The notes under the pieces were generated by a model, which saw only the letters and a list, made by a program, of their open reading frames with translations, did no database searches and was not told the DNA's origin. From positions 1-64,000 of the forward strand of contig NZ_PGGV01000029.1 of assembly GCF_002798405.1 (NCBI RefSeq): a stretch of 64,000 nt of DNA, in the 5' to 3' direction. Source of the DNA: Glycomyces xiaoerkulensis (lineage in GTDB: Bacteria; Actinomycetota; Actinomycetes; Mycobacteriales; Micromonosporaceae). Numbering within the stretch: position 1 is the first letter of the stretch; the number at the start of each line of letters is the position of its first letter. The translations under genes and the position numbers were made by a program. Below, piece after piece: positions 7,097 through 37,298 of this stretch.

Positions 7097-7858
7097 ATGG
7101 ACGTCAAAGATCCCACCGACCGCGCGGCGCTCGCCTCGCGGCTGCAACTCAAACTCGCCGAATCGTCAGAACCGCAACGGGTCTGCGAAGAGACGATCGA
7201 CGCCGCCGAGGACGGCCGCGGGACGCCGCCGCGCGCACCCCGGCGCCGGGGACTGAGCGAGCGGGCCGAACGGTTCCAGGCGCGACTGGGACTCTCCCAT
7301 GTGAACCGTTGGGTCCTGGTGGCCGTCGCCGTCGTGGCGGCCGCGACGGGCCTGTCGGCGATGATCCTGTCCTGGCCCCAGTCCGAGCCGGCCGCGACGG
7401 CCGAAGTCGAGCCGACCGCTTCGCCCGCGACGCAGCCGGAGACGATCGTCGTGTCGGTCGCCGGCGCGGTGCGGCGCCCCGGAATCGTCGAGCTCGAGTC
7501 CGGATCGCGGGTCGCCGACGCCATAGCGGCGGCCGGCGGGATGGCCGAGGAGGCCGACCCCGGATTCCTCAACCTCGCCCGAGTGGTCACCGACGGCGAC
7601 CTCGTAGCGGTGCCCGACGCCGACTCCGCGCCCGAGACGGCAGGCAGCGGCGGTGCGGCCGCGAGCGCCCTGGTCAACCCCAACGTCGCCGACGAGCGGA
7701 CGCTCACGACCCTGAACGGCATCGGCCCGGTCCTGGCCGAGCGGATCGTGGCCCACCGCGAAGCGAACGGCAGCTTCCAGTCGGTCGAGGAGCTGGCCGA
7801 CGTCCAGGGCATCGGGCCGAGCCTGCTGGATCAGATCCGCGACCAGGTGGCGCTGTAA
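7097..7858 (+). CDS. comEA: ComEA-like helix-hairpin-helix DNA-binding protein
   Basis: A membrane-anchored receptor for transforming DNA. Of 253 residues, the first 70 are cytosolic; one membrane segment follows (WVLVAVAVVAAATGLSAMIL), then a linker, an SLBB domain (VSVAGAVRRPGIVELESG) and a C-terminal pair of helix-hairpin-helix motifs (LNGIGPVLAERIVAHRE and VQGIGPSLLDQIRDQ). ATG 7097 follows a short upstream region with DnaA-box-like repeats. Its stop overlaps the comEC start codon. Confidence 0.92.
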   Translation: MDVKDPTDRAALASRLQLKLAESSEPQRVCEETIDAAEDGRGTPPRAPRRRGLSERAERFQARLGLSHVNRWVLVAVAVVAAATGLSAMILSWPQSEPAATAEVEPTASPATQPETIVVSVAGAVRRPGIVELESGSRVADAIAAAGGMAEEADPGFLNLARVVTDGDLVAVPDADSAPETAGSGGAAASALVNPNVADERTLTTLNGIGPVLAERIVAHREANGSFQSVEELADVQGIGPSLLDQIRDQVAL

Positions 7859-10182
7859 TGGCCGCCCTGAACGGGAGGCATCCCGAGCCCTCGAAGACCG
7901 TCGCCCGAGACCTGCGGCTGCCGCTGGCTGCGGCCGGCGCGTGGGCCGCCGCACTGGCCGGCCTCTACGGCGGCACCGCCGTATGCCTGCTTACCGCGAC
8001 CGGCTGCGCGGTCCTGGTGGCGGCGGCGCGAGGCCGGGCCGACCGCCCCCGGGCGGCGGTCGCGACCGTGGCGTTCGGGGGGCTGCTCGCCGCGGCCGTG
8101 ACCGCAGTGCATGTGACGGTGCGCGACGATGACCGCCTCGGCCGGTTGACCGCCGACCAGACCGTCGGCGAGGCCGAGTTGGTCATGCACACCGCGCCAC
8201 GGCCGTCGGCGCGGAGCCCGGGCGTGTACACCGCGAGTGCCCGCCTGCGGGCCTTCGAGACGGGTTCGGTGACCGTGCGGGGCCGCTGGCGGGTCTTCCT
8301 CATCGCCAGCGGCGACGAATGGGCGGACGTCACCGTCGGCCGGCCGATAGCGGTCGAGGCCGCCCTCCGGGAAGCCGAGCCCGGCCGACTGACCGCCGCG
8401 GTCGTCAGCGCGAGGGGACCTCCGGAAACGATTGGCCGCCCGGCGCCGCCGCACCGCCTCGCCGCACACGTGCGATCGCACTTGGCCGAAGCCGCCTCGG
8501 CGGTCCCGGCGCCCGAGTCGGGACTCATACCGGCATTGGCGGTCGGCGACACCTCGGGCATGGACCCCGGGCTGTCGGCGGACTTCCGGACGACCGGCCT
8601 GGTCCACCTGGTGGTGGTGTCCGGCTACCACTTGGGCCTGGTCACCGGGGCGGCCCTGGCGGTCGCGCTCGCCGCACGGGCGGGGCCGCGGACCCGGGTG
8701 GCGGTGGGCGCGGTCGCGGTGGTGGGGATCGTGGTCGTCGCCGGGCCGCAGCCGAGCGTGCTGCGGGCGGCGGTGATGACCGGGATGATGCTGCTGGCGC
8801 TCGCGGCCGGTCGGCCCGCCGCGGCGATGCCCGCATTGGCGACGGCGGTGCTGGTGCTGGTCCTGGCCGACCCGGACATGGCCGCGCGGCCGGGGTTCGC
8901 GCTGTCGGTGGCGGCTTGCGCCGGGCTGCTGCTGTTGGCCTTCCGGTGGGCGAGGCCGCTGGAGCACCGCGGCTGGCCGCAGTGGGCGGCTCTGGCGGTG
9001 ACGATCCCGGCAGCCACCCAGGTGGCCGTGACACCGCTGCTGGCGGCGTGGACCGGCGGGGTCAGCCTGGTGTCGGTGCCGGTGAACCTGCTGGCGACGC
9101 TCGCGGCGGCCCCGGTGGTGGTGCTGTCGGTGTCGGCGGCGGCAGCGGCGGCGGTCTGGATCCCGGCCGGAGAGTGGTTCGCGGCCCTGGCGGCGATCCC
9201 GGCGCGGTGGCTGGTGTGGTTGGCCGAGACCGGGGCGGCGGTGCCGGGGAGCACGCTGCCGTGGCCGGAGGGCGCCTGGTGGGGCTTGGCCGCGGCCGCG
9301 GCCCTGGCGGCGTTGATCGGCCTGCTCCATGTGCGCCGCTTGCGGCGGCCGCTGCTGGCCGTGATCGCCGCGGCGGTGCTCGGTTCGGTGCCGGCCTGCT
9401 GGTTCACCGGCGGACCGCCGTCTGGCTGGGTGGTGACGATGTGCGATGTGGGGCAAGGCGACTCACTGGTGCTGCCCGCAGGGGACGCGGTGGTGGTGGT
9501 CGATGTGGGCCCGGACCCGGGCCCGGTGGACGCTTGCCTGGACGACCTCGGGGTCGACCGGATCGCCCTGCTGGTGTTGTCCCACTTCCACATCGACCAC
9601 GCCGCCGGGATCGGCGGCGCGGTCTCGGGCCGGGAGGTGGAGGCGATCCTGGCGCCGCCGCCGGGCGAGGCGACCTATGGCTTCGACCTGGTCGAGGAGC
9701 ACGCCGGCGGGGTGCCGATGCTCGATCCCGCGCCAGGGCAGGTCTACCGGTTCGGTGCCACGAGCTTGGAGGTGCTGTGGCCGGGCGAACGGCTGATGTC
9801 GGGGACGCGATCGGACCCGAACAACAACTCGGTGGCGGTCCGGGCCGAGGTGGCGGGGACAACCCTGCTGTTGACAGGGGACGTCGAGGCGGAGGCGCAG
9901 CAGCGGCTGCTGGAGACCGGGCGGGGCTTGGCGGTGGACGTGCTCAAGGTGCCGCACCACGGCTCGGCGTTCCAGATCCCGGAGTTCCTGCGCGCGACCG
10001 AGCCCGCGGTGGCGCTGGTGGGGGTCGGAGCGGACAACTCGTACGGTCACCCGAACCCGGGCCCGCTGGCGCTCCTGGAGGAAACCGGCGCACTGGTGTT
10101 CCGCACCGACACGTCGGGCCGGGTCACCGTCTCGAGGGAAGGAGGCCGATTCGAGGTCGCGACCGACCGCCGCGCCGCCTGA
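7858..10182 (+). CDS. comEC: ComEC/Rec2 family competence protein
   Basis: The predicted DNA-uptake channel with a nuclease-like domain. It has 774 residues: N-terminal membrane segments and an OB-like region; a Competence domain of many membrane helices starting near GLVHLVVVSGYHLGLVTG; and a C-terminal metallo-beta-lactamase domain with the metal motif SHFHIDHAAG and a later GDVEAEAQ. ATG 7858 overlaps the comEA stop by one base (TAATG), showing tight coupling. Actinomycetes keep this pair even where natural competence has not been shown. Confidence 0.93.
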   Translation: MAALNGRHPEPSKTVARDLRLPLAAAGAWAAALAGLYGGTAVCLLTATGCAVLVAAARGRADRPRAAVATVAFGGLLAAAVTAVHVTVRDDDRLGRLTADQTVGEAELVMHTAPRPSARSPGVYTASARLRAFETGSVTVRGRWRVFLIASGDEWADVTVGRPIAVEAALREAEPGRLTAAVVSARGPPETIGRPAPPHRLAAHVRSHLAEAASAVPAPESGLIPALAVGDTSGMDPGLSADFRTTGLVHLVVVSGYHLGLVTGAALAVALAARAGPRTRVAVGAVAVVGIVVVAGPQPSVLRAAVMTGMMLLALAAGRPAAAMPALATAVLVLVLADPDMAARPGFALSVAACAGLLLLAFRWARPLEHRGWPQWAALAVTIPAATQVAVTPLLAAWTGGVSLVSVPVNLLATLAAAPVVVLSVSAAAAAAVWIPAGEWFAALAAIPARWLVWLAETGAAVPGSTLPWPEGAWWGLAAAAALAALIGLLHVRRLRRPLLAVIAAAVLGSVPACWFTGGPPSGWVVTMCDVGQGDSLVLPAGDAVVVVDVGPDPGPVDACLDDLGVDRIALLVLSHFHIDHAAGIGGAVSGREVEAILAPPPGEATYGFDLVEEHAGGVPMLDPAPGQVYRFGATSLEVLWPGERLMSGTRSDPNNNSVAVRAEVAGTTLLLTGDVEAEAQQRLLETGRGLAVDVLKVPHHGSAFQIPEFLRATEPAVALVGVGADNSYGHPNPGPLALLEETGALVFRTDTSGRVTVSREGGRFEVATDRRAA

Positions 10183-26857: not shown

Positions 26858-26934
26858 CGCGGGATAGAGCAGCTCGGTAGCTCGCCAGGCTCATAACCTG
26901 GAGGTCGTAGGTTCAAATCCTGCTCCCGCTACCA
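26858..26934 (+). tRNA. tRNA-Met (CAT), initiator type
   Basis: 77 nt with encoded CCA. The arms fold cleanly: acceptor CGCGGGA/TCCCGCT, D stem GAGC/GCTC, anticodon stem CCAGG/CCTGG with loop CTCATAA (CAT at 26892-26894), T stem GTAGG/CCTGC. Initiator hallmarks are the unpaired C1-U72 and the A11-U24 pair in the D stem. The usual three G-C pairs at 29-31 are reduced to A-U, G-C, G-C, which is atypical. The 3' half is the integration site of the island. Confidence 0.93.
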
Positions 26935-26935
26935 A
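26888..26935 (+). repeat. left attachment-site direct repeat (inside tRNA-Met)
   Basis: 48 bp running from the anticodon arm (GGCTCATAACC) to one base past CCA, repeated exactly at 37251-37298. This is the attL/attR pair expected for a tyrosine-recombinase element in a tRNA 3' half. Confidence 0.93.
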
Positions 26936-26948
26936 GAAATACCAGGTC

Positions 26949-26983
26949 AAACCCGGTTTCCTCACCAGAGGGAGCCGGGTTTT
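26949..26983 (+). terminator. intrinsic terminator after tRNA-Met
   Basis: AAACCCGG and CCGGGTTT form an 8-bp stem, with an inner CCTC/GAGG pairing and trailing Ts. It now ends the tRNA transcript. It belongs to the element side of attL, while the presumed original tRNA terminator was displaced to 37300-37327. Confidence 0.8.
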
Positions 26984-26992
26984 TCCATCCGT

Positions 26993-27019
26993 GTTGCTCG
27001 TTCGTTGCTCAGATGAACC
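26993..27019 (+). repeat. putative integrase arm-type repeat, left copy
   Basis: 27 bp starting GTTGCTCGTTCGTTGCTC and ending GATGAACC; the copy at 37101-37127 matches at 25 of 27 positions in the same orientation. Each copy holds two GTTGCT units 11 bp apart. The near-terminal positions at both ends fit arm-type binding sites of a tyrosine integrase (inference). Confidence 0.6.
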
Positions 27020-27116
27020 ATGATCACTCGGCACAACCCTGAATTACCAGCAGTCATCATCGTGATCTGTATCACTAAAATAGCTATCGTCCTCCGGTGC
27101 AACGAAAACACGATCC

Positions 27117-28223
27117 CTATTCGAGTGTAGATGCGGAGCCGTGGACGCTTGGAGCGTCGAGGTCTGCGGGAATGATGTGCCCAGCGGGAAAGAGCTCAGC
27201 TCGCACTAGCTTGTCATCTTGGTAGGCGAACAGCATCGCAGCTGGCTGGGTGTAGGTGGCCTCTTGTGCTGGTTGCACACCCAGGTTCCGGTCATGCGGT
27301 GTGTACTCGACCTGGATCTTGAGGATCTTGGCTGTTGCCGCAAATACCTGGTTATCGATCCTGGCCGCCTTGACTGGAATGGTCTTCCGGGGTTCAGGGA
27401 TGATCGACCAAGCCTTGAGAGTGGGGAGTCCCAACCCAGGCATTCCCTTGAACCAGTCGGCGAGGTCCAGACGCGTTCGGCCGTCAGCTTGCAGGTTACG
27501 TTCCAGGGCAGAACGGAAAACCCCGCTTTGCAGGGCTCGATCGAGCTCGAGAGGGGCCTCGACTTTTGGGTTGGCTATCCAGGCAATGAGTTCCTCGTTC
27601 GTGGAGAAGTACTTCATATGTCCGACGTGGCGGACATGTGCCTCTCGGAGAAGATCCGGGTGCAACCGGCCGTCATCGCCTTGGAAACCCTTGTCAGCGG
27701 AGACGAAAATGGGGTTCTGTGACTGCTCCGCGGCGTTCAGGAAGGACAGCCAGGCTACGACGTCGCGTCCGCCCCTGACGCCCTGCGCGCCAGCCAGTGC
27801 CGGCCGAATCCGACTGGCCTCGCGGTGCATTGCCTCTTTCTCAGCGTCTTCCGGGGCTGGCAGCACCTCTTGGATGACACGCCGTACACCCTCCTCGTAC
27901 TGCTTGACCGCCGATGAGATCGAAGGTGCGTAGCGAGGTTCGCCGGTGCGCAGGAACTCGATGCACCCTGTCCAGGTCGCCACCTCCCGCGTGAGTCGCA
28001 TCCGCGCCGATGTTTGCTGGTCCTCTGGCTGCGTCGTGTCGAGTGCTCGCTCGAGAAGCTTCTCGATCTTGCGTCGGTAGGAACTCGTCAGCTCCGTCAT
28101 TACGATCTCTGGGATCGCCAGACGGATGCGTCGCTCCGCGGCGACCGCCCGCAGCAGCGTCATCTCTGGCATGAACAGATGCCCATCGATGAGCTGATTC
28201 GTATCAAAGACGATTCTGTGCAT
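27117..28223 (-). CDS. PIN-domain protein (DUF4935-like), island cargo
   Basis: 368 residues. The N-terminus MHRIVFDTNQLID has the first PIN acidic residue (Asp7); EIVMTELTS supplies a Glu, and GRDVVAWLSF and VSADKGF supply the later Asps, completing a PIN-type metal site. Residues up to about 190 form the PIN region (DUF4935 type). The remaining 180 residues are an uncharacterised domain. PIN proteins cut RNA, often as toxins. ATG 28223 is chosen since the PIN fold starts there. It is divergent from the nSTAND gene across 221 bp and has no obvious small antitoxin neighbour. Confidence 0.8.
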   Translation of the reverse strand: MHRIVFDTNQLIDGHLFMPEMTLLRAVAAERRIRLAIPEIVMTELTSSYRRKIEKLLERALDTTQPEDQQTSARMRLTREVATWTGCIEFLRTGEPRYAPSISSAVKQYEEGVRRVIQEVLPAPEDAEKEAMHREASRIRPALAGAQGVRGGRDVVAWLSFLNAAEQSQNPIFVSADKGFQGDDGRLHPDLLREAHVRHVGHMKYFSTNEELIAWIANPKVEAPLELDRALQSGVFRSALERNLQADGRTRLDLADWFKGMPGLGLPTLKAWSIIPEPRKTIPVKAARIDNQVFAATAKILKIQVEYTPHDRNLGVQPAQEATYTQPAAMLFAYQDDKLVRAELFPAGHIIPADLDAPSVHGSASTLE

Positions 28224-28444
28224 GGCACCCAGTCTATCGCCCACGGTGATCCATAAGAGCAGCGCAGGGGGCGCGGACTGAATCCTCAAGTGCAACGTCG
28301 TAGTACGTCATTCGCTCGTAGATAACGATGTTGTAGCGATTCCGCTGCCCGGGTGCTGGGAGGTAAAATCATTCGACCGAACCCAACCGCTTGATCGCGA
28401 CGGCCGAAGAACCCAAGCGCAACATCCAGCAAACCAGGAGCACT

Positions 28445-30733
28445 ATGCCCGATTATGATTTTAAGACACTGTCTCCTGCAGACTTTGAGCTGCTCGTACG
28501 CGACTTGCTGAATGCCGAGCATGGCTGGCGTCTTGAGGCTTTCGGGCATGGTCGCGACGGAGGTGTTGATCTCCGAGGGCAAACCAGTGATGGCAGCCTC
28601 GTAATTCAATGTAAGCACTATGCAGGGTCGACATTCGGGGATCTCCTCAAGGCTGCGAAGAGTGAACGGTTCAAGCTCGAAACCGAAAACCCAGATCGGT
28701 ATATATTTGTTACTTCTCAGAATCTCAGCAAGACTCAAAAGGACACCTTGTGTGGCGAGCTGAGGCCATATCTAATGGATTCTCACGATCTCTTGTCGCG
28801 GCTTGACCTAAATGAATTGCTAGGTCGACACGCGAAGATCGAGGAACGGAATTTTAAACTGTGGCTAGCATCCGATACCGTTTTGAGGAGAATAGTTCAG
28901 GCTGGGCTATGGGAGCGGAATGAAGCTCTCCTCGAAGATATCCGTGACCGGGTCCAGCTCTATGTAGCGAACGCAGGGTTTGATCAAGCAAGGGATGTTC
29001 TCAACTCGCAGGGGGTAGTTGTACTCACGGGAGCTCCAGGTGTCGGAAAGACCATGCTAGCGGAAATGCTGCTGCTCTCACACTGGTATGAAGGCTGGCA
29101 AGTTATACAATTGTCAGATATTAAAGAAGCCTGGGATAGTACCGTTCGGGGCAGGCAACAGATATTCTTTTTCGACGACTTTCTAGGTCAGACCGACTTG
29201 AGTGAGCGTAGTAGAGCTAGCGATTCTCAAATTACCCGATTCATGCGCAGTTTGGAACGAGACCCTAGCAACCGTCTGGTGATGACAACCCGGACGCAGA
29301 TTCTTAATCAGGCGAAACTTATTAGCGAGGAAGTCCGACGCGCCGAATTCAACCCGAGTCAATATATTGTGAAACTGGCAGATTATGGACCATTTGAGCG
29401 TGCGCAAATTCTCTATAATCATCTGTACTACTCAGTGCAAGACCGCGAAGTTATACGCGAGTACGTTGCCGATAGGCGATACCATGAAGTGATTTATCAT
29501 CCGAACTACTCTCCGAGAATCATTGAGCAAGTGATCCGAAGGAGAGTTTCGTCTGCAAGAGAGCTGGATGACGCGATCCGTACCGCGCTAGATAGGCCAA
29601 TCGAGCTCTGGGGAACAATGTTTGAGACAGTTCTCTCTTCGGCGGCGCAGAAAATCGTAATCACAATCTCCTCATTTCCCGTCGAAGGAGTTCGACCGGA
29701 GATCCTGCGAAAACTGTGCGCTGCGGATCTGACGCCAATCCAGTACAACCATGCTCTGAAGCCGCTGGAAGGGACCTTTGTGTCGATTCAGCATCGGCCG
29801 CGTCATACAGTCCCGACAATCGCGTATGCTGATCCCAGTGTTCGAGACTATATTCTTGCGTTTCTTGATGGGGAAACAGAGTACGTAGTACAGCTCATCC
29901 AAGGTGCCACGGAACTAAGTCAAATTGCTACTCTACTTGACTACGCCAGTGCTGTTGTGAGCGGCGGCACGAAATTTCCCGGCATTGCTTCAGCAATTAG
30001 ATCAAACCAACGTATGGTCGCGGACTCGGTGCGGAAAATAATCCACGATAGCGATCCTGCATCGCGAATCGAAGAAGGACGACTCGCATTCCCTATCATG
30101 AAGCCACTAGTGCACTTGCTTGGACACGCCTCATTCCACATGCCAACTGAGCTGCCTGACCTTGTTCAGATCGCCTTTGACCTCGCTGAGCGCTGCGACT
30201 ATCAACTCCTTGAAGAGACTCTTGAGGGCATGGCCTATATGGTGATTCGAGATCCAGAGACGTTCGAGCTTATAATGCCAACCTTGATTCCGAAACTCCT
30301 AAAAGCCTGGGGTCATGAAGTAATCCAATCTGACAGATTGATGGACTTTGCGAATTTCGTCGAGCAGCACGAAAGCTTCTTGGGGCAATTCACTGATCCT
30401 CAGGAACTTGTACGGGAAGCAGCCCTTTCGGCGTTGCAAGCCGATCTGGATGCTCTGAACGACAATCGTAGTTCAATCCATGCTGACATGGAATGGATTG
30501 ATGGCGTTGAAGAAGCCGCAGTTGCGACGGGGGTACTTGAGCAGCTCAGCCCCGAGATTACTCGTGAGCGCATTGAGACTTTGGAAGAATACGATATAGA
30601 AGAATACGACTATGTGGGTGCGTATGAATCTGCCTCTAAACCAGTCCTTGGGGCGGGGATCAGTCAGCAGGCCCGAGAGCCTGCACGGAACCAAGAGATC
30701 GAAATCGATGCCATGTTCGACAATCTAAGCTAG
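28445..30733 (+). CDS. Mrr-like nuclease fused to nSTAND3-type NTPase (probable anti-phage protein)
   Basis: 762 residues. Residues 1-130 form an Mrr-like restriction endonuclease domain with GRDGGVDLR (Asp42) and VIQCKHY (Gln55, Lys57), the D-QxK site. Residues 190-400 form a STAND NTPase with Walker A GAPGVGKT (196-203), Walker B-like IFFFDDFLG (240-248) typical of the nSTAND3 group, and a TTR sensor. The C-terminal 350 residues are helical and presumably sense the trigger. STAND NTPases with nuclease effectors (Avs-like) detect phage proteins and kill or arrest the cell. ATG 28445 has AGGAG 5 nt upstream. AT-richer codon use marks it as acquired. Confidence 0.88.
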   Translation: MPDYDFKTLSPADFELLVRDLLNAEHGWRLEAFGHGRDGGVDLRGQTSDGSLVIQCKHYAGSTFGDLLKAAKSERFKLETENPDRYIFVTSQNLSKTQKDTLCGELRPYLMDSHDLLSRLDLNELLGRHAKIEERNFKLWLASDTVLRRIVQAGLWERNEALLEDIRDRVQLYVANAGFDQARDVLNSQGVVVLTGAPGVGKTMLAEMLLLSHWYEGWQVIQLSDIKEAWDSTVRGRQQIFFFDDFLGQTDLSERSRASDSQITRFMRSLERDPSNRLVMTTRTQILNQAKLISEEVRRAEFNPSQYIVKLADYGPFERAQILYNHLYYSVQDREVIREYVADRRYHEVIYHPNYSPRIIEQVIRRRVSSARELDDAIRTALDRPIELWGTMFETVLSSAAQKIVITISSFPVEGVRPEILRKLCAADLTPIQYNHALKPLEGTFVSIQHRPRHTVPTIAYADPSVRDYILAFLDGETEYVVQLIQGATELSQIATLLDYASAVVSGGTKFPGIASAIRSNQRMVADSVRKIIHDSDPASRIEEGRLAFPIMKPLVHLLGHASFHMPTELPDLVQIAFDLAERCDYQLLEETLEGMAYMVIRDPETFELIMPTLIPKLLKAWGHEVIQSDRLMDFANFVEQHESFLGQFTDPQELVREAALSALQADLDALNDNRSSIHADMEWIDGVEEAAVATGVLEQLSPEITRERIETLEEYDIEEYDYVGAYESASKPVLGAGISQQAREPARNQEIEIDAMFDNLS

Positions 30734-31780
30734 CGACCTCGTGCATGGTTGTGGTTGGCGCGCAACAGCTCCTGTGTGCGGCTGAGTTCAGCTCGAGGAA
30801 CCGGTCGCGCGGGCGGCGGTCTGCTGGTGTGAGAGCAGTCCGGCGACGGCTCCGATGATGTCGGTCATGGGCTCGCGGCGGCCGTGGTGGCGGGCGAGGG
30901 ACCGCCAGTTCTTCAGATGCGCGATGCCGTGCTCAACACGGATCCGCCGGGACGAGTGCGCATGGCGCTGCTCGGCCAGGAGTGCCTCGTACCAGGCCGG
31001 CGGGTGCTTCTTGAACTTCCGGTGCGGTGGTGTCACGACCCGTCCACCGGATTCGGTCCCGAGCCCCTGGTATCCGGCATCGGCCAGCATGGTCGTGTCG
31101 TTCTCGGCGGCCAGCAGCTCCGGCAGCCCTAGCTGCCGGGCGTGGGTGATGTCCGCGCGGCTGCCGGGCACCGCTGGGCTGCAGTACAGCACGCGTCCCT
31201 CGGTGTCGGTGACGACCATGGTCTTCACCGCGTTCTGCTTGGTCTTGCCGGAGACGAACCGGTCGCGGCCTGGGCTGCCTTCCGCGGGTCGGCGGACGCG
31301 GATCTCGGTGCCGTCGACGATGCCGGCCTGTCCGGTGGCGCCGAGGTGGTCGACGACCTCGGCGAGGGTGCGCAGCCGGACGCCAGGAGCGATGGAGCAA
31401 CCCCGAGCGGCCAGTAACGGCCGGATCTCACCGACAGCGCGGGTGATGGTGGAGCGGTCGACGCCGAACCAGCAGGCGAGCACGTCATGGGTGACGCCGT
31501 GCCGCAGGTTCACCAGGGTGGCCAGGAGTCGGTCGATGAAGACCAGCCGGTGCTTCGCTCCGGCGCCGATGGCTCGGCTCCGCGGCCGGGAGACCAGGCG
31601 GTCGATGCGCTGCTGCTCCCAGATCGGTCCGATCTCGGCCTCGATCGCGGCGATCACCTCGGGTGTCAACCCGGTGATCCGCCGGTCGCCAACGATCGCA
31701 TCCCGCACTCCGGTCCCCACCATGGACCTATGATCCACGTTGAAGGCCTTGTGCGCCAACCACAACCATGCACGAGGTCG
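30734..31780 (-). mobile_element. IS5-family insertion sequence, apparently intact
   Basis: 1047 bp with near-perfect 28-bp terminal inverted repeats: left starting CGACCTCGTGCATGG at 30734, right being its complement ending at 31780. Flanks are CTAG on the left and TTAG on the right, a YTAR-type target as used by several IS5 subgroups. It carries one transposase gene. It lies immediately after the TAG stop of the nSTAND gene, so that protein is not interrupted. Confidence 0.9.
30788..31723 (-). CDS. IS5-family DDE transposase
   Basis: 311 residues. The N-terminal helix-turn-helix region LRHGVTHDVLACWFGVDRST is followed by a DDE_Tnp_4 catalytic domain with Asp in IVDGTEIRV, Asp in LADAGYQG and Glu in RVEHGIAHLKNW, so all three catalytic residues are present. 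ATG 31723 is preferred; a TTG start at 31765 lies inside the terminal repeat. GC content is higher than the neighbouring cargo genes, consistent with separate arrival. Confidence 0.9.
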   Translation of the reverse strand: MVGTGVRDAIVGDRRITGLTPEVIAAIEAEIGPIWEQQRIDRLVSRPRSRAIGAGAKHRLVFIDRLLATLVNLRHGVTHDVLACWFGVDRSTITRAVGEIRPLLAARGCSIAPGVRLRTLAEVVDHLGATGQAGIVDGTEIRVRRPAEGSPGRDRFVSGKTKQNAVKTMVVTDTEGRVLYCSPAVPGSRADITHARQLGLPELLAAENDTTMLADAGYQGLGTESGGRVVTPPHRKFKKHPPAWYEALLAEQRHAHSSRRIRVEHGIAHLKNWRSLARHHGRREPMTDIIGAVAGLLSHQQTAARATGSSS

Positions 31781-31914
31781 TTAGGACGGCCGCTATCCGC
31801 GTTCGTTGAGCGCCTCGAACTACCTCCTTCGCTCTTCTTCGGCGAACCGGCGTTCGGGCGAAGTTCGAAACCGGCGTTGGGGGAGATGTCGGGGCTCTGG
31901 TGCAGAGTTGGACC

Positions 31915-32745
31915 ATGGCGATACGAAAACTCCCGGACCTCACCCCCGAACAAGTGGTTCAGTTGCAGGACGCGTTGCTGGAGAACGCCAACGCTCTCCT
32001 GACATCGGCGCTCGCCCTCCTGGATCAGGGCCAGGTGGCCCTTGCAAGATCGTTGGCAGTCCTGGGGTTGGAGGAATCAGGCAAGGCGATCGCAATCCAT
32101 GAGCGGCGAGTCGCCATTGTCAGTGCACCAGAGGGTGAACCCTTCAGATGCGACGATTTGGATCAGCTGTGGGCAAGTCATGAGCAAAAGCTTCACAAGG
32201 TGTACTACTTCTTGCTCGAAGAGCCGTACTGGTTTGATCGAGAACCTCCTGACTCGGGCCGGAATGCAGCCCAGCTTGGCACGATCAAGTCCTGGGCACG
32301 CCGCCACGACAGGTGGAAGCTGCGAGGCTTCTACGTGGATCTTGACAAGCTCGGAAACGTTAAGATGCCCACGGACGCAGATGACAAGACAACCCTGCGT
32401 GAAGTCATCGAGCGAGTTCATCAGATTGGATGGCAGCTTCGACTAGGTGAGCACATCGAAGGCCAGCAACAAGATGAACGCGAAGCGGGCTTTCCTCCGC
32501 TATCCGACGAGAGCTTGGAGTGGCTTGACGCGAACGCCAAAAACATTGACGGCTCACCGAATGAGTTCCACCAGTCGTTGCGGCAGGGAGTGCCGGGGCA
32601 ATCCTTGTCCAATGCTGCTTACCGCTTCAACCTCCCCGGATCGGACCAGAACCCGTTCCCCAACTTCGGAAAGCCCGGATACGAAGCTGAGACCATCGAG
32701 CTCATCGCGTTGGCGGAAGAACTGGGCCAGGAGGATAGCGAGTGA
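31915..32745 (+). CDS. AbiV-like abortive infection protein
   Basis: 276 residues. The N-terminal region has the AbiV family pattern: NANALLTSALALLDQGQ, then ARSLAVLGLEESGKAIAIHE, with the conserved LEESGKA helix. AbiV of Lactococcus halts phage growth by blocking translation after meeting a phage protein; here the family link is by motif only. The C-terminal 120 residues (from about TLREVIERVHQIGWQL) are extra compared with short AbiV proteins. GTG 31900 is an alternative start. IS5 lies 119 bp upstream and may have changed its promoter. It overlaps the next gene by 4 bp. Confidence 0.78.
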   Translation: MAIRKLPDLTPEQVVQLQDALLENANALLTSALALLDQGQVALARSLAVLGLEESGKAIAIHERRVAIVSAPEGEPFRCDDLDQLWASHEQKLHKVYYFLLEEPYWFDREPPDSGRNAAQLGTIKSWARRHDRWKLRGFYVDLDKLGNVKMPTDADDKTTLREVIERVHQIGWQLRLGEHIEGQQQDEREAGFPPLSDESLEWLDANAKNIDGSPNEFHQSLRQGVPGQSLSNAAYRFNLPGSDQNPFPNFGKPGYEAETIELIALAEELGQEDSE

Positions 32746-33227
32746 GTACTGATACTTTGGCGGTGATCGGTGCATTGGCTGGAACTATTGGCGCGCTGAC
32801 AGGGGTTGTCTCAGCTGTCTGGCAGATTCGGGTGCACCAGCGCTTCGGCCGACTGATCTCTATCAAGCTGTCAAATCTGATCCCAGTTTACGGACCGCCC
32901 TATGCCCCTGAGTTCCATGATGACGATCAGGTGGCGATAAACGTGTTCAATCGAGGCGGCGCGTCCGTGACTGTACTGAACTACGGTGTCAGCATGGGGC
33001 GACCAAAGAAGGGCATCAATTTGTTCGTGCTCGATCCGCATGTGATCTCCACGCAGCTGCCAGCCGTGCTTGAGCCAGGGGGCCGCCCAGTTCAGGTGAC
33101 GGTTCCAGTCGGACAGTTGCGAGAAGCGCACGCGAAGCGCAACCTCCCATTCAGGCAGATGCGCCCATGGGTTGAACTCGGGGACGGGCGACGGATTTAT
33201 GCGAGAAGCGGCGTTCCCCTAGCGTAG
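32742..33227 (+). CDS. membrane-anchored small protein coupled to AbiV-like gene
   Basis: 161 residues, no family recognised. One N-terminal membrane segment (AVIGALAGTIGALTGVVSAV) precedes a beta-rich domain (VAINVFNRGGASVTVLNYGV, then PVQVTVPVGQL) that looks Ig- or beta-sandwich-like. GTG 32742 overlaps the AbiV-like stop (GTGA) and has AGGAGG upstream, so the two are translated together. Such coupling suggests a functional pair, for instance a sensor or effector at the membrane; this is inference. Confidence 0.72.
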   Translation: MSTDTLAVIGALAGTIGALTGVVSAVWQIRVHQRFGRLISIKLSNLIPVYGPPYAPEFHDDDQVAINVFNRGGASVTVLNYGVSMGRPKKGINLFVLDPHVISTQLPAVLEPGGRPVQVTVPVGQLREAHAKRNLPFRQMRPWVELGDGRRIYARSGVPLA

Positions 33228-33252
33228 CGCAGGGTTCGACTGGTCGCGATTC

Positions 33253-34572
33253 CTATACGAAAAGGTTGCTGCTATGCACTTTTCCGGCCCCAGGCAGAGC
33301 GCTAAGCGTCTTCAGGAGCGAGGATAGTATTGCATCGATTCCCGACCAATCCTGGCTGCCCCTCAATGACGGATCAGACTGGAGTGCACGAACCTTCGCC
33401 TTGAACCTCTTCTGAATATTGGATTTGTCCGCTACCTCGCCTTGGTATCGGCTGATGCCAGGCAGTCGTCCTTTCCAATGCACCGGATGAAGTCCGTCCG
33501 CCCCGGAGAGAACATCCGTTCCCAGATACAGCTCTATTGACCCAGCTAGTCCGTTCACATTCATCTTAGCGGTACCTTGAGGCCCAACGGTTGGATAATT
33601 CCTAGCCAATTGAATGTCCGGATAGTGCGTAACCGCGAAGTGGGAGGGAAGCTTGAAACCTCTCAAGCCTGATACGGCCTCGTAGGCTGCGCTGTCATTG
33701 TCAAGCAGGGCAATGACTCGATTCCTTATTCCGGCTGCAGTAAAGCTCTTCAGGTTCCTTACAACACTTCCTGCTCCTCCTTCCACGCCCACGGCGTGCT
33801 CAAAAAATCTGATGTAAGGCGCCAAGTGCGGTTTGACGATGCGAATTCCATCATTCAGTACTTCGGCATCAAACGTTCCTTCCGTAAGTACAATTGTGGG
33901 TTCAAGGCCGAGATCCCAACTTGTGGGGTCATCCCATATCTCTTCCTTATTTCGTGCGAGGCAGCACCCTCCGCCATCCTCGGTAAGGTCTATGGTGATT
34001 ATCTTGCCATCTGGCACGTGTGCTACGATCGCCCTTAGTACCACTCGAATATCCGCGTACTCATCAAAAGGCCAAATATAGGCATCATCATACTTCAGAT
34101 GGTACCTGACGGGTCCTCCTGAAATGGTTCCTTGGATATCATTCCACCAATCTTCAAATTTTTCATTGAGAAGTGTGTCAATTCTCGAATCGACTTCGGC
34201 GAGCATTTCCTCTCGGTCAGAGTTGCTTTCCATCTGACGGATGTATCCAGCGATATTTCTTTGGGATTCTACGTCCGAGTTCACGTGAAGCAAGTAGGCA
34301 TCCTTGACCGCATCTTTGCCAATACCCATTGCATCGAGTCGATCCCGCAGTTCTCGCGCCTGAATCTGAACCACATAGACTTCCTCGTCAGGATCAGGTT
34401 GCTCGTGTGAAGCTACGCGCCAATATGTCGCATACCAGCGCGCCTGCGAGCCGGTCAATACCTTGACCGGACTGTCGACAAACAGATACTCAAGGCCGAC
34501 GGGCGGGACTGGCCAGTTGCGGATGTGGTGTACGAGTCGCCTATTGACATAAATTCCGTTATAGTGTCCCAT
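33253..34572 (-). CDS. HEPN/Toprim-associated domain protein with Toprim nuclease core
   Basis: 439 residues. The opening MGHYNGIYVNRRLV resembles the N-terminal domain that accompanies HEPN or Toprim domains in bacterial defence proteins. A Toprim core follows: Glu231 in TIVLTEGTFDAEVL and the DxD pair Asp291/Asp293 in IALLDNDSAA, with GVEGGAGSV between them. Toprim nucleases of OLD, Gabija and related systems cut DNA. I see no ATPase domain in this protein or an adjacent ATPase gene. The start ATG 34572 has AAGAGAG upstream. It is convergent with the AbiV pair, 25 nt apart, and AT-rich. Confidence 0.8.
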   Translation of the reverse strand: MGHYNGIYVNRRLVHHIRNWPVPPVGLEYLFVDSPVKVLTGSQARWYATYWRVASHEQPDPDEEVYVVQIQARELRDRLDAMGIGKDAVKDAYLLHVNSDVESQRNIAGYIRQMESNSDREEMLAEVDSRIDTLLNEKFEDWWNDIQGTISGGPVRYHLKYDDAYIWPFDEYADIRVVLRAIVAHVPDGKIITIDLTEDGGGCCLARNKEEIWDDPTSWDLGLEPTIVLTEGTFDAEVLNDGIRIVKPHLAPYIRFFEHAVGVEGGAGSVVRNLKSFTAAGIRNRVIALLDNDSAAYEAVSGLRGFKLPSHFAVTHYPDIQLARNYPTVGPQGTAKMNVNGLAGSIELYLGTDVLSGADGLHPVHWKGRLPGISRYQGEVADKSNIQKRFKAKVRALQSDPSLRGSQDWSGIDAILSSLLKTLSALPGAGKVHSSNLFV

Positions 34573-34903
34573 TCATGACTCTCTTGTGATCTGGTGGGCG
34601 AACTCCAACTAGAGTAGACGCCATCTTCTGCCCAATCAAAGAGGAAATACCCTTAGGTCCGGCCCGACCTGGATCGGTAGGAAGGTCAAGTTAGTGAGCC
34701 TTCGACTTTCAGCGACGTATCGATCTACCCGGACTGGCAGAGAGCCCGGTTCCTTCCGGCCCCCATACTCTCCCCGAGGTGCAGATGATGCTCCGCATGA
34801 CCTTTGATCTCGGCGTGACCGAGGCTCTCTAGATCCAGGGCGATGATGTGAAGGTCCGCTGCGAGCTCGGGCGCCAACAGTCCGCAGTTGGAGAGCTCAC
34901 GGA
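34573..34903. other. non-coding stretch between defence cargo and relaxase fragment
   Basis: 331 bp. No credible gene is seen; short frames lack ribosome sites and family similarity. The left part must hold the promoter of the minus-strand Toprim gene. The rest may be decayed sequence downstream of the relaxase. Confidence 0.5.
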
Positions 34904-35480
34904 TCAGGTCAGCGGCCAGGGGCCCTGCGTCGCTGCCGTTGAGGGATCGCGGGAGACGATTTGCCAGGCTGTCCCCCAGGCGGATGCGAGGGCGTCATCG
35001 ACTGCGGCTCGGTCAAGATCCGGAAGCGCCACATAGGTGTCGTGGGCGATGGTGATCGCGAGCTGTTGTGCTGCCGTGTTGGCGAGGCCGATGGTGCCTG
35101 TGAACGCCTCGGTGCTGTCAATAGTGAGAGCTGCGCTTGCTGCGGCCCACCATGAGTGGTGTCCTGCGCGGCCTTCTTCGGGGTAGGGGCCGAAGGGGTG
35201 TACGGGGTCGTCGGTGTTGGTGCGCATCTGGTCGCGGTGCGCGGCGGCGATGGCGATGGCGGTGCGCCAGCGGTCGTAGGTCGCTTCGTCGGTTGGGGCC
35301 TCGCCGAAGGCTTCGGTCCAGGCAGGTCGTTCGGTGACGGCTATGTCGGTGAGGTGGTCGACGCGGGCACTGAAAGCGCCTGCGACGTGGTCGAGGTAGT
35401 CGCGGAGTGCGGTGGGGACGGCGTCGCTGTGGTGGAGGACAGCGGGTGCGATGGCCCAGGGGAGCGGGAGCCTCCCCCCT
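34904..35480 (-). pseudogene. C-terminal fragment of a MobF-like relaxase
   Basis: About 190 residues remain, with the pattern of actinobacterial MobF/TrwC relaxase C-termini: RDYLDHVAGAFSARVDHL, ERPAWTEAFGEAPTD, AAAHRDQMRTNTDDPVHPFG and GRAGHHSWW. The catalytic and helicase parts, normally hundreds of residues, are missing: the frame runs straight into the left end of the IS3-family element. The true stop is kept at 34904. This shows the island once encoded conjugative transfer. Confidence 0.72.
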
Positions 35481-35536
35481 TGATGGGGACACCCTGATCG
35501 CCGGGCCGGTAGGCTCGGCTGCAAGGAGCGATCAAG

Positions 35537-35860
35537 GTGACCTCAGGCAGCAAGTACACCGATGAGTTCAAGGCCGATGCGGTCCGTTTGTACGTGAACG
35601 ACCCTGATTCGTCGTATGTCACGACCGCGCAGGCGTTGGGTATCTCGCCGAACACGCTCAAGAACTGGGTGCGCAAGGCCAGTGCGGGCAAACTCACGGC
35701 CGATGCCGCTGGGCAGAGCTCGAATCCGACGCTCGATGTAGCCTCCCAGGCTGTGATCGAAGCAGAGAACCGTCGCCTGAAAGCCGAAGTCGCCCGCCTG
35801 CGCGAGGAGCGCGACATCCTGCGCAAGGCGTCGGCGGTTCTTCTCCGCGCGACGGACTGA
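35537..35860 (+). CDS. IS3-family transposase OrfA
   Basis: 107 residues. A helix-turn-helix (KYTDEFKADAVRLYV, then TTAQALGISPNTLKNWVRKA) is followed by a leucine-zipper-like coiled coil (ENRRLKAEVARLREERDILRKA, given by its ends). GTG 35537 has AAGGAG upstream. In IS3 elements OrfA binds the ends and is fused to OrfB by -1 frameshifting near its 3' end; here orfB follows in the -1 frame. Confidence 0.9.
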   Translation: MTSGSKYTDEFKADAVRLYVNDPDSSYVTTAQALGISPNTLKNWVRKASAGKLTADAAGQSSNPTLDVASQAVIEAENRRLKAEVARLREERDILRKASAVLLRATD

Positions 35861-36757
35861 GCGAGCGTTATCAGTTCGTCGCCGATGCCCACCAGGCCGA
35901 AGGCTGGGCGGTCACCCGCCTGTGTGCCGCGCTGGGGCTGACGCGCTCGAAGTACTACCAGTGGAAGGGCACCAAGGAGGCCCGCCGTGCCCGCAAGGCC
36001 TCCGACGCGGCCGTGTTCGAACAGATCACGGCCGCCTGGAAGGACTCCGGGGAGTCCTACGGCTCGCCGCGGATCACCGCCGATCTGCGGCGAGCGGGGG
36101 TGCTGGTCAATGAGAAGCGCGTGGCCCGGCTGATGCGTGAGGGCGGGATCGAGGGCCGCTCGTGGCGCCCGAAGCGGCCGATCACCACCGTGCCCGACCC
36201 CGAGGCGCCGGCGGTGCCCGACCGGCTCGGACGGACCTTCACCGCCGAGGCCGTCGGCCAGAAGTACGTCTCGGACCTGACCTACCTGCCGCTGGCCGAC
36301 GGCACGTTCCTGTATTTGACCTCGGTGATCGATCTGGCCAGCCGCAGGGTCGCCGGCTGGACGATCACCGACCACATGCGAGCCGAGGTCGTGGCCGACG
36401 CGTTCGAGGCCGCCAGGGGCACCCGCGGCACGCTGGCAGGCGCCATTGCGCACTCGGACAACGGCAGCCAGTACACCTCGCTCCTGTTCAGACAGTACTG
36501 CGAGCGGCACGGCCTCCTGCAATCCGCGCGGGAAAGTCGGCACCAGCGCCGACAACGCACTCGCTGAGTCCTTCCACGCCTCGCTCAAACGCGAACTGCT
36601 CGGCACCGGCGGCAGGTTCACCGACGCCGACACCGCCCGGCTGGAAGTGTTCTCCTACCTCAACTGGTTCAACCACCGCAGGCGGCACTCGTCACTCGGC
36701 TACGACTCCCCGGTCGAGTACGAACAGCGCCTCGCTACAGTCCCAACAACCGTCTAG
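35860..36757 (+). pseudogene. IS3-family transposase OrfB, frameshifted
   Basis: The DDE integrase-like OrfB runs in one frame through YVSDLTYLPLADG (first Asp) and HSDNGSQYTS (second Asp) to GLLQS at 36525. It then continues in the next frame as RGKVGTSADNALAESFH, with the catalytic Glu. A single extra base at about 36526 explains the break. The stop is at 36757. With the Glu out of frame the enzyme should be dead unless a second frameshift rescues it. Confidence 0.88.
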
Positions 36758-36774
36758 ATTCGGTGTCCCCATCT

Positions 36775-37081
36775 GAGGGGAAACTCCCAAGTCCATGACG
36801 TGCGCGTAGAGCTGATACGTGTAGACTTCCCGGGTTTTGACCTCGACAGTGATGTTCGGCAGCCAGATCTCCTCGACGTACTGCCTGAATGAGACCTGGC
36901 CGCGAACGAGGTGGTCGCCGCGCTGGGCGTCGACCTCGGCCTCCGCAGCCTTCCACTTTTTGTCGGCCTGCTTCTTCGTCGAGAAGGTTCCAGCGGACCT
37001 CCGGTCTCCCCGCCGATCGAAGTACACTGCGGTCCACCGTCGCTCGCCATCGGAGTTGTAGCGCTTGAGCGAATAACCCAT
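36775..37081 (-). pseudogene. N-terminal fragment of a tyrosine integrase
   Basis: About 102 residues from ATG 37081: MGYSLKRYNSDGERRWTAVY, then RSAGTFSTKKQADKKWKAAE and the start of the core-binding domain (FRQYVEEIWLP). This is the typical arm-binding plus SAM-like N-terminus of actinobacterial phage-type integrases. The catalytic domain is absent because the frame enters the right end of the IS3-family element. It sits 170 bp from attR, the normal place for an island integrase. Confidence 0.85.
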
Positions 37082-37100
37082 GGATTCCCGTCCTGTTCTC

Positions 37101-37127
37101 GTTGCTGGTTCGTTGCTCTGATGAACC
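37101..37127 (+). repeat. putative integrase arm-type repeat, right copy
   Basis: Same orientation as 26993-27019 with two mismatches. It lies just upstream of the integrase start, so a bound integrase could also control its own gene. Confidence 0.6.
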
Positions 37128-37250
37128 GCGCTCGAGCGGTACCTGCAGGCACGCACCGGTATGATTCCGGGAATCGTTCTCGCAGGTCAGGATGGAAGTT
37201 AGTTCGGCATTTCGCTGGTCACAAGGGTCCCTGTAGTTCCGACAGGACCG

Positions 37251-37298
37251 GGCTCATAACCTGGAGGTCGTAGGTTCAAATCCTGCTCCCGCTACCAA
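37251..37298 (+). repeat. right attachment-site direct repeat
   Basis: An exact 48-bp copy of the tRNA-Met 3' half (26888-26935). No tRNA 5' half lies before it, so this copy is not a functional tRNA. Confidence 0.93.

Follow-up and report, generated by a model that had tools for sequence, protein, structure and literature searches.

Published Toprim immune effectors, in the excerpts of the literature available to us, act together with a regulator that is either fused or separate: an ATPase in OLD, Gabija and PARIS, and a reverse transcriptase (RT) with its msDNA in retron Eco2. The Toprim domain of Eco2 is an RNase that is toxic when expressed alone and whose mutants lose defence; its active set comprises Glu374, Asp460 and Asp462 at metal A, Asp378, Ser513 and Glu515 at metal B, and Lys562 (PMC12405507). 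The AriB Toprim of PARIS is reported to cleave tRNA (PMC12409363), and a review credits OLD and GajA with DNA nuclease activities (PMC10568477). The Toprim domain of the OLD protein YbjD is reported to be dispensable (PMC13261556), isolated TOPRIM_OLD toxins exist that need an AAA antitoxin (PMC10440598), and Toprim_2 is described as DnaG-primase-like (PMC5512222).

A further Toprim fusion stems from the 2013 report of Anantharaman et al. (PMC3710099), which defined the domain HEPN/Toprim-NTD1 and describes fusions of it with TOPRIM, with members of two HEPN families and with an Mrr-like nuclease; both the TOPRIM fusion and a role in defence were predicted there, the paper being one of prediction. 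There, 'HEPN/Toprim' denotes an N-terminal domain said to occur on effectors of both kinds, and HEPN belongs to the other fusions. Within open-access PMC, the terms 'Toprim-NTD1', 'PF18871', 'HEPN_Toprim_N' and 'Toprim-associated' led only to this paper, and we found there no experimental study of any HEPN/Toprim protein, although work under another name would escape such a search. The family has been described through prediction and annotation; the addition made here is a family-wide check that an ATPase is absent. The starting point is a gene in a 64,000-nucleotide stretch of Glycomyces xiaoerkulensis DNA (contig NZ_PGGV01000029.1), referred to below as the window.

Sequence samples and alignments

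A search of genome contigs with the single protein found nothing, and an alignment-based profile search found 122 relatives, the loci of 80 of which were fetched for alignment and for a survey of neighbouring genes. The larger alignment has 70 rows, namely, the window protein and 69 relatives with ORFs of 380–490 aa; the 11 ORFs outside this range do not enter the residue counts. The smaller alignment has nine rows: the window protein and eight relatives found by a whole-protein search. Neighbours were called with a home-made gene caller, which recovered 41 of 46 annotated genes and made nine extra calls, and the family scan took in 146 of the 154 immediate neighbours (70–900 aa). Additionally, we consulted 16 annotated regions that were hand-chosen rather than random; two pairs of these represent the same islands in different strains and are not independent.

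Identity of the gene and its product

The features of the locus are collected in Table 1. The choice of start codon fits the family, since Met1 is present in 65/70 and Gly2 in 52/70 aligned rows (window included). The protein has a sub-threshold Pfam match to HEPN_Toprim_N (PF18871; E = 0.0049; 17.3 bits, with the cut-off at 25); it matched no Pfam Toprim model, no RT domain, and DUF4435 not at E ≤ 0.1, and there was no match in PADLOC or NCBIfam. When 296 genomes of the phylum were scanned with PF18871, three relatives (3/296 genomes) passed the cut-off and the organism's own genome contained nothing that matched at E ≤ 0.001. The assignment of this divergent copy follows from its relatives: PF18871 is matched at E ≤ 0.01 by 64/70 aligned members (window included), and of the 48 plasmid records with a relative, 40 are listed, 31 of them under the annotation 'HEPN/Toprim-associated domain-containing protein'. 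At the same threshold, Toprim_2 is found in 8/70 and OLD-like_TOPRIM in 3/70 aligned members, the window copy being without the latter. PADLOC gives weak matches to AriAB in 3/70 and to AriB in 1/70.

Judged by these matches, the window protein is a divergent member of the HEPN/Toprim-NTD1 plus TOPRIM family. Its domain order is that of the 2013 proteins, in which an α+β N-terminal domain of ~240 aa is followed by TOPRIM, and nothing essential differs from that description except its divergence (17.3 bits, cut-off 25). In the HEPN or Mrr proteins of the same report (PMC3710099), the N-terminal domain is, by that account, the same and the effector is swapped. The HEPN element of the name given in the initial annotation does not carry over to the protein itself: a HEPN domain was considered and rejected, as the R-X4-6-H motif is not conserved. 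R..H strings are present, but the histidine following Arg180 occurs in 1/9 rows and lies outside the four commonest letters of the 70-row alignment.

Table 1. Coordinates of the gene, its domains and the surrounding element (positions in the window)
Feature	Position	Strand	Basis or remark
tRNA-Met (CAT), integration site	26858..26934	+	ARAGORN
Left att-like repeat, 51 nt, 3' part of tRNA-Met	26885..26935	+	98% identical to 37248-37298
PIN_12-domain protein, left edge of island	27117..28295	-	PF16289 8.3e-13
nSTAND3 NTPase with N-terminal Mrr nuclease	28391..30733	+	PF20720 2.6e-49, PF04471 1.5e-9; PADLOC candidate PDC-S73 1.4e-135
AbiV-family protein (HEPN_AbiV), convergent	31900..32745	+	PF18728 E=6e-33; TIGR04498 E=2.1e-22
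161-aa protein downstream of AbiV	32742..33227	+	ORF; overlaps AbiV gene by 4 bp
HEPN/Toprim-NTD1 + TOPRIM protein	33253..34572	-	Intact ORF, 439 aa, ATG start
TOPRIM nuclease domain (predicted), residues 223-434	33271..33906	-	VIA-align to retron Eco2; hhalign to OLD-type
Asp291-Asn-Asp293, Toprim DxD motif	33694..33702	-	9/9; 70/70 by construction
Glu231, Toprim motif I (TEGxxD; Asp235 next)	33880..33882	-	70/70; 9/9
N-terminal domain, residues 1-222, proposed sensor/regulator	33907..34572	-	α+β, long helical hairpin (H86-112, H118-136)
Helicase C-terminal tail	34904..35524	-	E 3.6e-79, 3.4e-78 to C-terminal parts of 1,020, 1,123 aa congener ORFs
Tyrosine integrase N-terminal remnant	36692..37156	-	Cut off by IS3-type element (IS about 35467-36788)
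Right att-like repeat, 51 nt	37248..37298	+	Direct-repeat search

The predicted Toprim domain

Glu231, Asp291 and Asp293, the Toprim residues originally described as intact, are indeed found at these positions, and together with Asp235, Glu347 and Lys383 each is present in all nine rows of the smaller alignment. In the 70-row alignment, Glu231, Asp235, Glu347 and Lys383 are invariant (70/70) and Ser345 is present in 60/70 rows, all five lying outside the search pattern; the 70/70 scores for Asp291, Asp293 and Asn284 arise by construction, because the pattern with which these relatives were fetched contained DND.

AlphaFold2, supplied with the 70-row alignment, produced a model of the full-length protein with a pLDDT of 89.9 and a pTM of 0.91. 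A Foldseek search of the PDB with this model gave no match at E ≤ 0.001, the best (0.02) being retron Eco2; nor was there a match at E ≤ 0.001 in the viral structure library, and the family profile reached a best E of 0.77 against PDB sequences. With VIA-align 2, residues 224–432 of the model align with retron Eco2 (9lm3_E) with a Z-score of 9.7 over 161 residues (rmsd 3.1). The three highest-ranking entries are all Eco2 RT-Toprim structures (Z 9.7, 9.3 and 9.1), and the next in the list stands at 7.9; OLD Toprims score 7.0–7.8 (6nk8_B, 7.8) and RNase M5 6.5, on a scale where unrelated receiver domains reach up to 7.9. Structure prediction, put forward in the initial annotation as a check, has yielded a model in which the Toprim half is closest to the Toprim RNase of Eco2. 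Moreover, Glu231, Asp235, Asp291, Asp293, Ser345, Glu347 and Lys383 reproduce the Eco2 active set in order and with equal spacing within the motifs; the correspondence is one of order and spacing, not of superposed coordinates. The alignment begins with residue 224 on residue 367 and, if it is ungapped, Glu231 falls on Glu374. At the level of sequence profiles, hhalign relates the family to OLD-type Toprim proteins of the phylum (E = 2.1e-4, 70 columns, probability 46%), the controls, a reversed alignment and the N-terminal half, giving E-values of 0.44 and 0.8, respectively; this constitutes moderate evidence that the family has an OLD-type Toprim domain.

The N-terminal domain

Modelled alone with AlphaFold2, the N-terminal domain has a pLDDT of 83.0. 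Foldseek found no match to it in the PDB at E ≤ 0.001, and the best VIA-align Z-score was 6.8, with rows mainly over residues 85–154, which is not proof of a new fold. This half of the protein is the less conserved: the mean pairwise identity is 21.0% for the N-terminal half versus 39.3% for the Toprim half, and the latter is the more conserved one in 2414/2415 pairs. Exchange of the domain between effectors was not confirmed, as a search of plasmids with that of one relative (L003) gave one record. The rapid divergence, together with the exchange onto other effectors described in 2013, suits a role as sensor or regulator, without proving it; support for the 'sensor-like N-terminus' proposed originally is indirect.

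Absence of an ATPase and of a recurrent partner

The initial annotation had stated that neither an ATPase domain nor an ATPase gene accompanies this Toprim protein, and scans of the protein and its neighbours for Walker A and Pfam families bear this out. Walker A is absent from the window protein and from every aligned member (0/70, window included), and Pfam ATPase families are found neither in the window protein nor in the 161-aa neighbour (32742–33227); on the other side of the gene there is only the relaxase/helicase tail. The nearest ATPase is encoded by the nSTAND3-Mrr gene (28391–30733), ~2.5 kb off, and has an Mrr nuclease domain of its own. By way of a yardstick, Walker A occurs in the same ORF for 6/14 OLD-like or DUF4435 ORFs of the phylum. 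It is found in none of the seven ORFs (407–443 aa) of relatives from viral contigs.

An ATPase partner consistently present at homologous loci had been named as the observation that would overturn this picture, and the survey found no such partner: across the 80 loci, Walker A genes make up 9/154 immediate neighbours versus 23/325 genes at positions 4–6. Expressed by locus, a Walker A gene is at ±1 in 9/80 and within three genes in 24/80, and of the 23 same-strand neighbours that overlap the gene or lie ≤60 bp away, three have Walker A. The nine Walker A neighbours are mutually unrelated and, by Pfam, none is of the OLD/ABC or AriA type: they comprise TrkA_C (L041), a carbamoyl-phosphate synthase small chain (L071), an nSTAND/metallophosphatase protein (L081), a kinase with AAA (L086), a weak DEAD match (L051), AAA_22/NACHT (L056), an NB-ARC regulator (L068), a zeta-toxin-like protein (L079) and one protein with no Pfam match (L020). 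In one of the 16 annotated regions, chosen as these were, the next gene is an annotated AAA ATPase (L008); it lies 2 kb away on the opposite strand, beside a Mu-type transposase.

A conserved partner gene of any other kind was likewise sought and rejected. The largest cluster of neighbours within four genes covers 5/80 loci, and its five members are all protein kinases at varied positions; among the 25 most frequent families listed for immediate neighbours, the commonest in Pfam is Phage_integrase (4/146) and each in PADLOC occurs ≤2/146 times. Since Walker A is absent and no neighbour family recurs, these sequence comparisons support, for the family, the earlier description of a self-contained Toprim protein. 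Within Escherichia coli, where a prophage copy lies at L108:8001-9338, one divergent 309-aa neighbour (L108:6690-7619 and L109/L110:6690-7619) accompanies the gene at two different insertion sites, which suggests that the two genes form a cassette in that lineage; this neighbour was not found beside the Qat-island copies.

Genomic context and distribution

The gene lies within a 10.4-kb remnant of an integrative element in tRNA-Met (26858–37298) with defence-like cargo. Between the repeats, the order is PIN_12, nSTAND3-Mrr, an IS5-type element, AbiV, the 161-aa gene, the HEPN/Toprim gene, the helicase/relaxase-type tail, an IS3-type element and the integrase N-terminus. The stop codon of the nSTAND3-Mrr gene falls right on the border of the IS5-type element, whose inverted repeat starts at 30730, and the insertion may have changed the C-terminus of this protein. 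The integrase remnant is homologous to the first part of ORFs of 494–547 aa in three congeners, one of which was scanned and matches Phage_integrase; in all three, the similarity to the beginning of the integrase extends as far as the same att end, and DNA resembling the conjugation tail is found 26–60 kb away on the same contig, two of these stretches reading as long ORFs. Of the two congener ORFs matched by the helicase tail, the one scanned contains AAA_30; the tail probably belongs to a relaxase-helicase conjugation protein, 'relaxase' being our reading, and a search for it in plasmids gave no match. The island probably derives from an integrative conjugative element whose transfer core would have disappeared around the IS3 copy. 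The GC contents of the HEPN/Toprim (0.514) and nSTAND3 (0.504) genes, compared with 0.678 for the window, fit a foreign origin.

The convergent AbiV pair highlighted in the initial annotation is present, with a gap of 25 bp to the small gene ending at 33227, but the pairing itself is not fixed: the 161-aa protein has no match in Pfam, and a homologue of its gene is absent from a congener's AbiV locus (L122). The likely AbiV start is the ATG at 31915, as the congener homologue aligns from residue 6. AbiV as a partner across the family was rejected, because no ORF of loci L002–L092, some of them only 3–4 kb long, matched it at E ≤ 0.001. Indeed, when seven window proteins (AbiV, its small neighbour, nSTAND3-Mrr, PIN, the integrase fragment, the relaxase tail and IS5) were compared with the ORFs of these loci, only PIN matched, and the AbiV neighbour looks incidental to the HEPN/Toprim gene. 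The PIN_12 relative is near one distant family member (L054:1708-2862).

The family is carried patchily. Matches were found in 5/396 genomes of a phylum sample (own genome included), in 1/22 genomes of the genus and, in a DNA-level search with one E. coli member, in 13/5,426 E. coli genomes, five of them over ≥80% of the query; phage records gave one match. DUF4435 is found in 1/149 genomes of the phylum. A 70-row tree of the Toprim half spans 16 NCBI phyla, and the three rows nearest to the window are Micromonosporaceae; the tree is partly clustered by phylum, as the phylum labels require 22 changes against a minimum of 15 and a shuffled mean of 34.1. Eleven of the 16 annotated regions contain a defence gene (Qat, AbiE, restriction enzyme) or an integrase/prophage gene, a raw, uncontrolled count; contexts include an intE prophage edge, Qat islands, AbiE genes and a Mu-like prophage, and most neighbouring genes carry no defence label. 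Micromonospora costi has two family members in tandem (L066:6203-7435 and 7515-8780). The HEPN/Toprim gene is, then, a mobile passenger, spread patchily over at least 16 phyla, and some copies reside in prophages, on plasmids or in defence islands.

Discussion

Among the described systems, retron Eco2 (Ec67) provides the closest Toprim structure (Z 9.7) and counterparts, by order and spacing, for all seven active-site residues; however, the control half of Eco2 is a reverse transcriptase with msDNA, whereas the window protein has a different N-terminal domain. AriB of PARIS is likewise a Toprim nuclease in phage defence, but is controlled by the ATPase AriA, and the window gene has no such partner. 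OLD and GajA of Gabija have an OLD-type Toprim with detectable profile homology to the window family, yet carry a fused ATPase that the family does not (0/70 Walker A).

The reading that we prefer, at a probability of roughly one-half (0.52), is that of an immune effector consisting of one protein. Its TOPRIM nuclease, grouped with those of OLD, AriB and retron Eco2, would be under the control of the fast-evolving N-terminal domain and would most likely cut RNA. Before infection, the N-terminal domain would keep the Toprim nuclease off; on infection, this half of the protein would sense either a phage product or its effect, and recognition would release a two-metal nuclease, most likely RNA-cutting and with tRNA as the leading candidate substrate. 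RNA cleavage would then stop translation and the infection would be aborted, presumably by cell death or arrest; none of this would call for a neighbouring gene for an ATPase, helicase or reverse transcriptase. An RNase of the Eco2/AriB kind with a role in abortive infection appears most likely. In favour of this reading are the Eco2 match with its shared residue set, the toxicity of the Eco2 RNase and tRNA cleavage by AriB, the better-conserved Toprim half, the lack of Walker A and the patchy, mobile carriage. Weighing against it are the neighbours that mostly bear no defence label, the Foldseek result (nothing at E ≤ 0.001), the OLD and RNase M5 structures scoring no better than receiver domains, the Toprim_2 matches, the DNA activities of OLD and Gabija, the dispensable Toprim of YbjD and the TOPRIM_OLD toxins that depend on an AAA antitoxin.

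The same architecture might, however, harbour a DNA nuclease, which, when triggered, would cut phage or host DNA as in OLD and Gabija. The hhalign match with the OLD-type Toprim proteins (E = 2.1e-4 against 0.44 and 0.8 for the controls), the OLD Toprim structures at Z 7.0–7.8 and the DNA activities of OLD and GajA (PMC10568477) all point in this direction; we nevertheless consider it unlikely, as the closest structure (Eco2, Z 9.7) is an RNase, and the fused ATPase described for OLD/GajA is missing from the family. Somewhat less probable again is a toxin that is not self-contained but is controlled by a partner encoded elsewhere or by varying neighbours, in the manner of a toxin–antitoxin pair or through a sensor acting in trans. 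Isolated TOPRIM_OLD toxins with AAA antitoxins are known (PMC10440598); 23 same-strand neighbours overlap the gene or are within 60 bp, three of them with Walker A, and the E. coli copies at two insertion sites have the 309-aa divergent neighbour in common. Against this, the top neighbour family, in 5/80 loci, consists of protein kinases whose positions vary, the set of nine Walker A neighbours is mutually unrelated (one is a carbamoyl-phosphate synthase subunit) and the 309-aa gene is missing beside the Qat-island copies.

Two further readings would take the protein out of immunity or out of use. The presence of family members on plasmids and viral contigs, and of Toprim_2 as the Toprim model matched most (8/70 members), could indicate a DnaG-like primase or topoisomerase-type Toprim that serves replication or transfer of mobile elements; but Ser345, Glu347 and Lys383 are conserved beyond the acidic triad, Pfam assigns the window protein neither a primase nor a helicase domain and several copies are near defence genes, such that we regard this as highly improbable. 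Least credible of all is that the gene is a decaying passenger with no current function in this strain: its host element is a remnant, with a truncated integrase, a truncated conjugation gene and two insertion sequences, yet the ORF is intact and its active-site set complete.

Extended from this protein to the family, the preferred reading of a self-contained immune effector becomes more tentative, and we hold it possible rather than probable that these genes represent a widespread form of one-gene immunity, in which a Toprim RNase with its own N-terminal sensor would dispense with ATPase, helicase, reverse transcriptase and nucleic-acid cofactor, and the diverging sensor half would set phage specificity. 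If this is true, an ATPase-free, RT-free Toprim immune effector exists in at least 16 phyla. The family apparently manages with one small N-terminal domain, across those phyla and in a small number of E. coli strains, and would, thereby, offer a minimal system for asking how a Toprim nuclease stays off and what switches it on.
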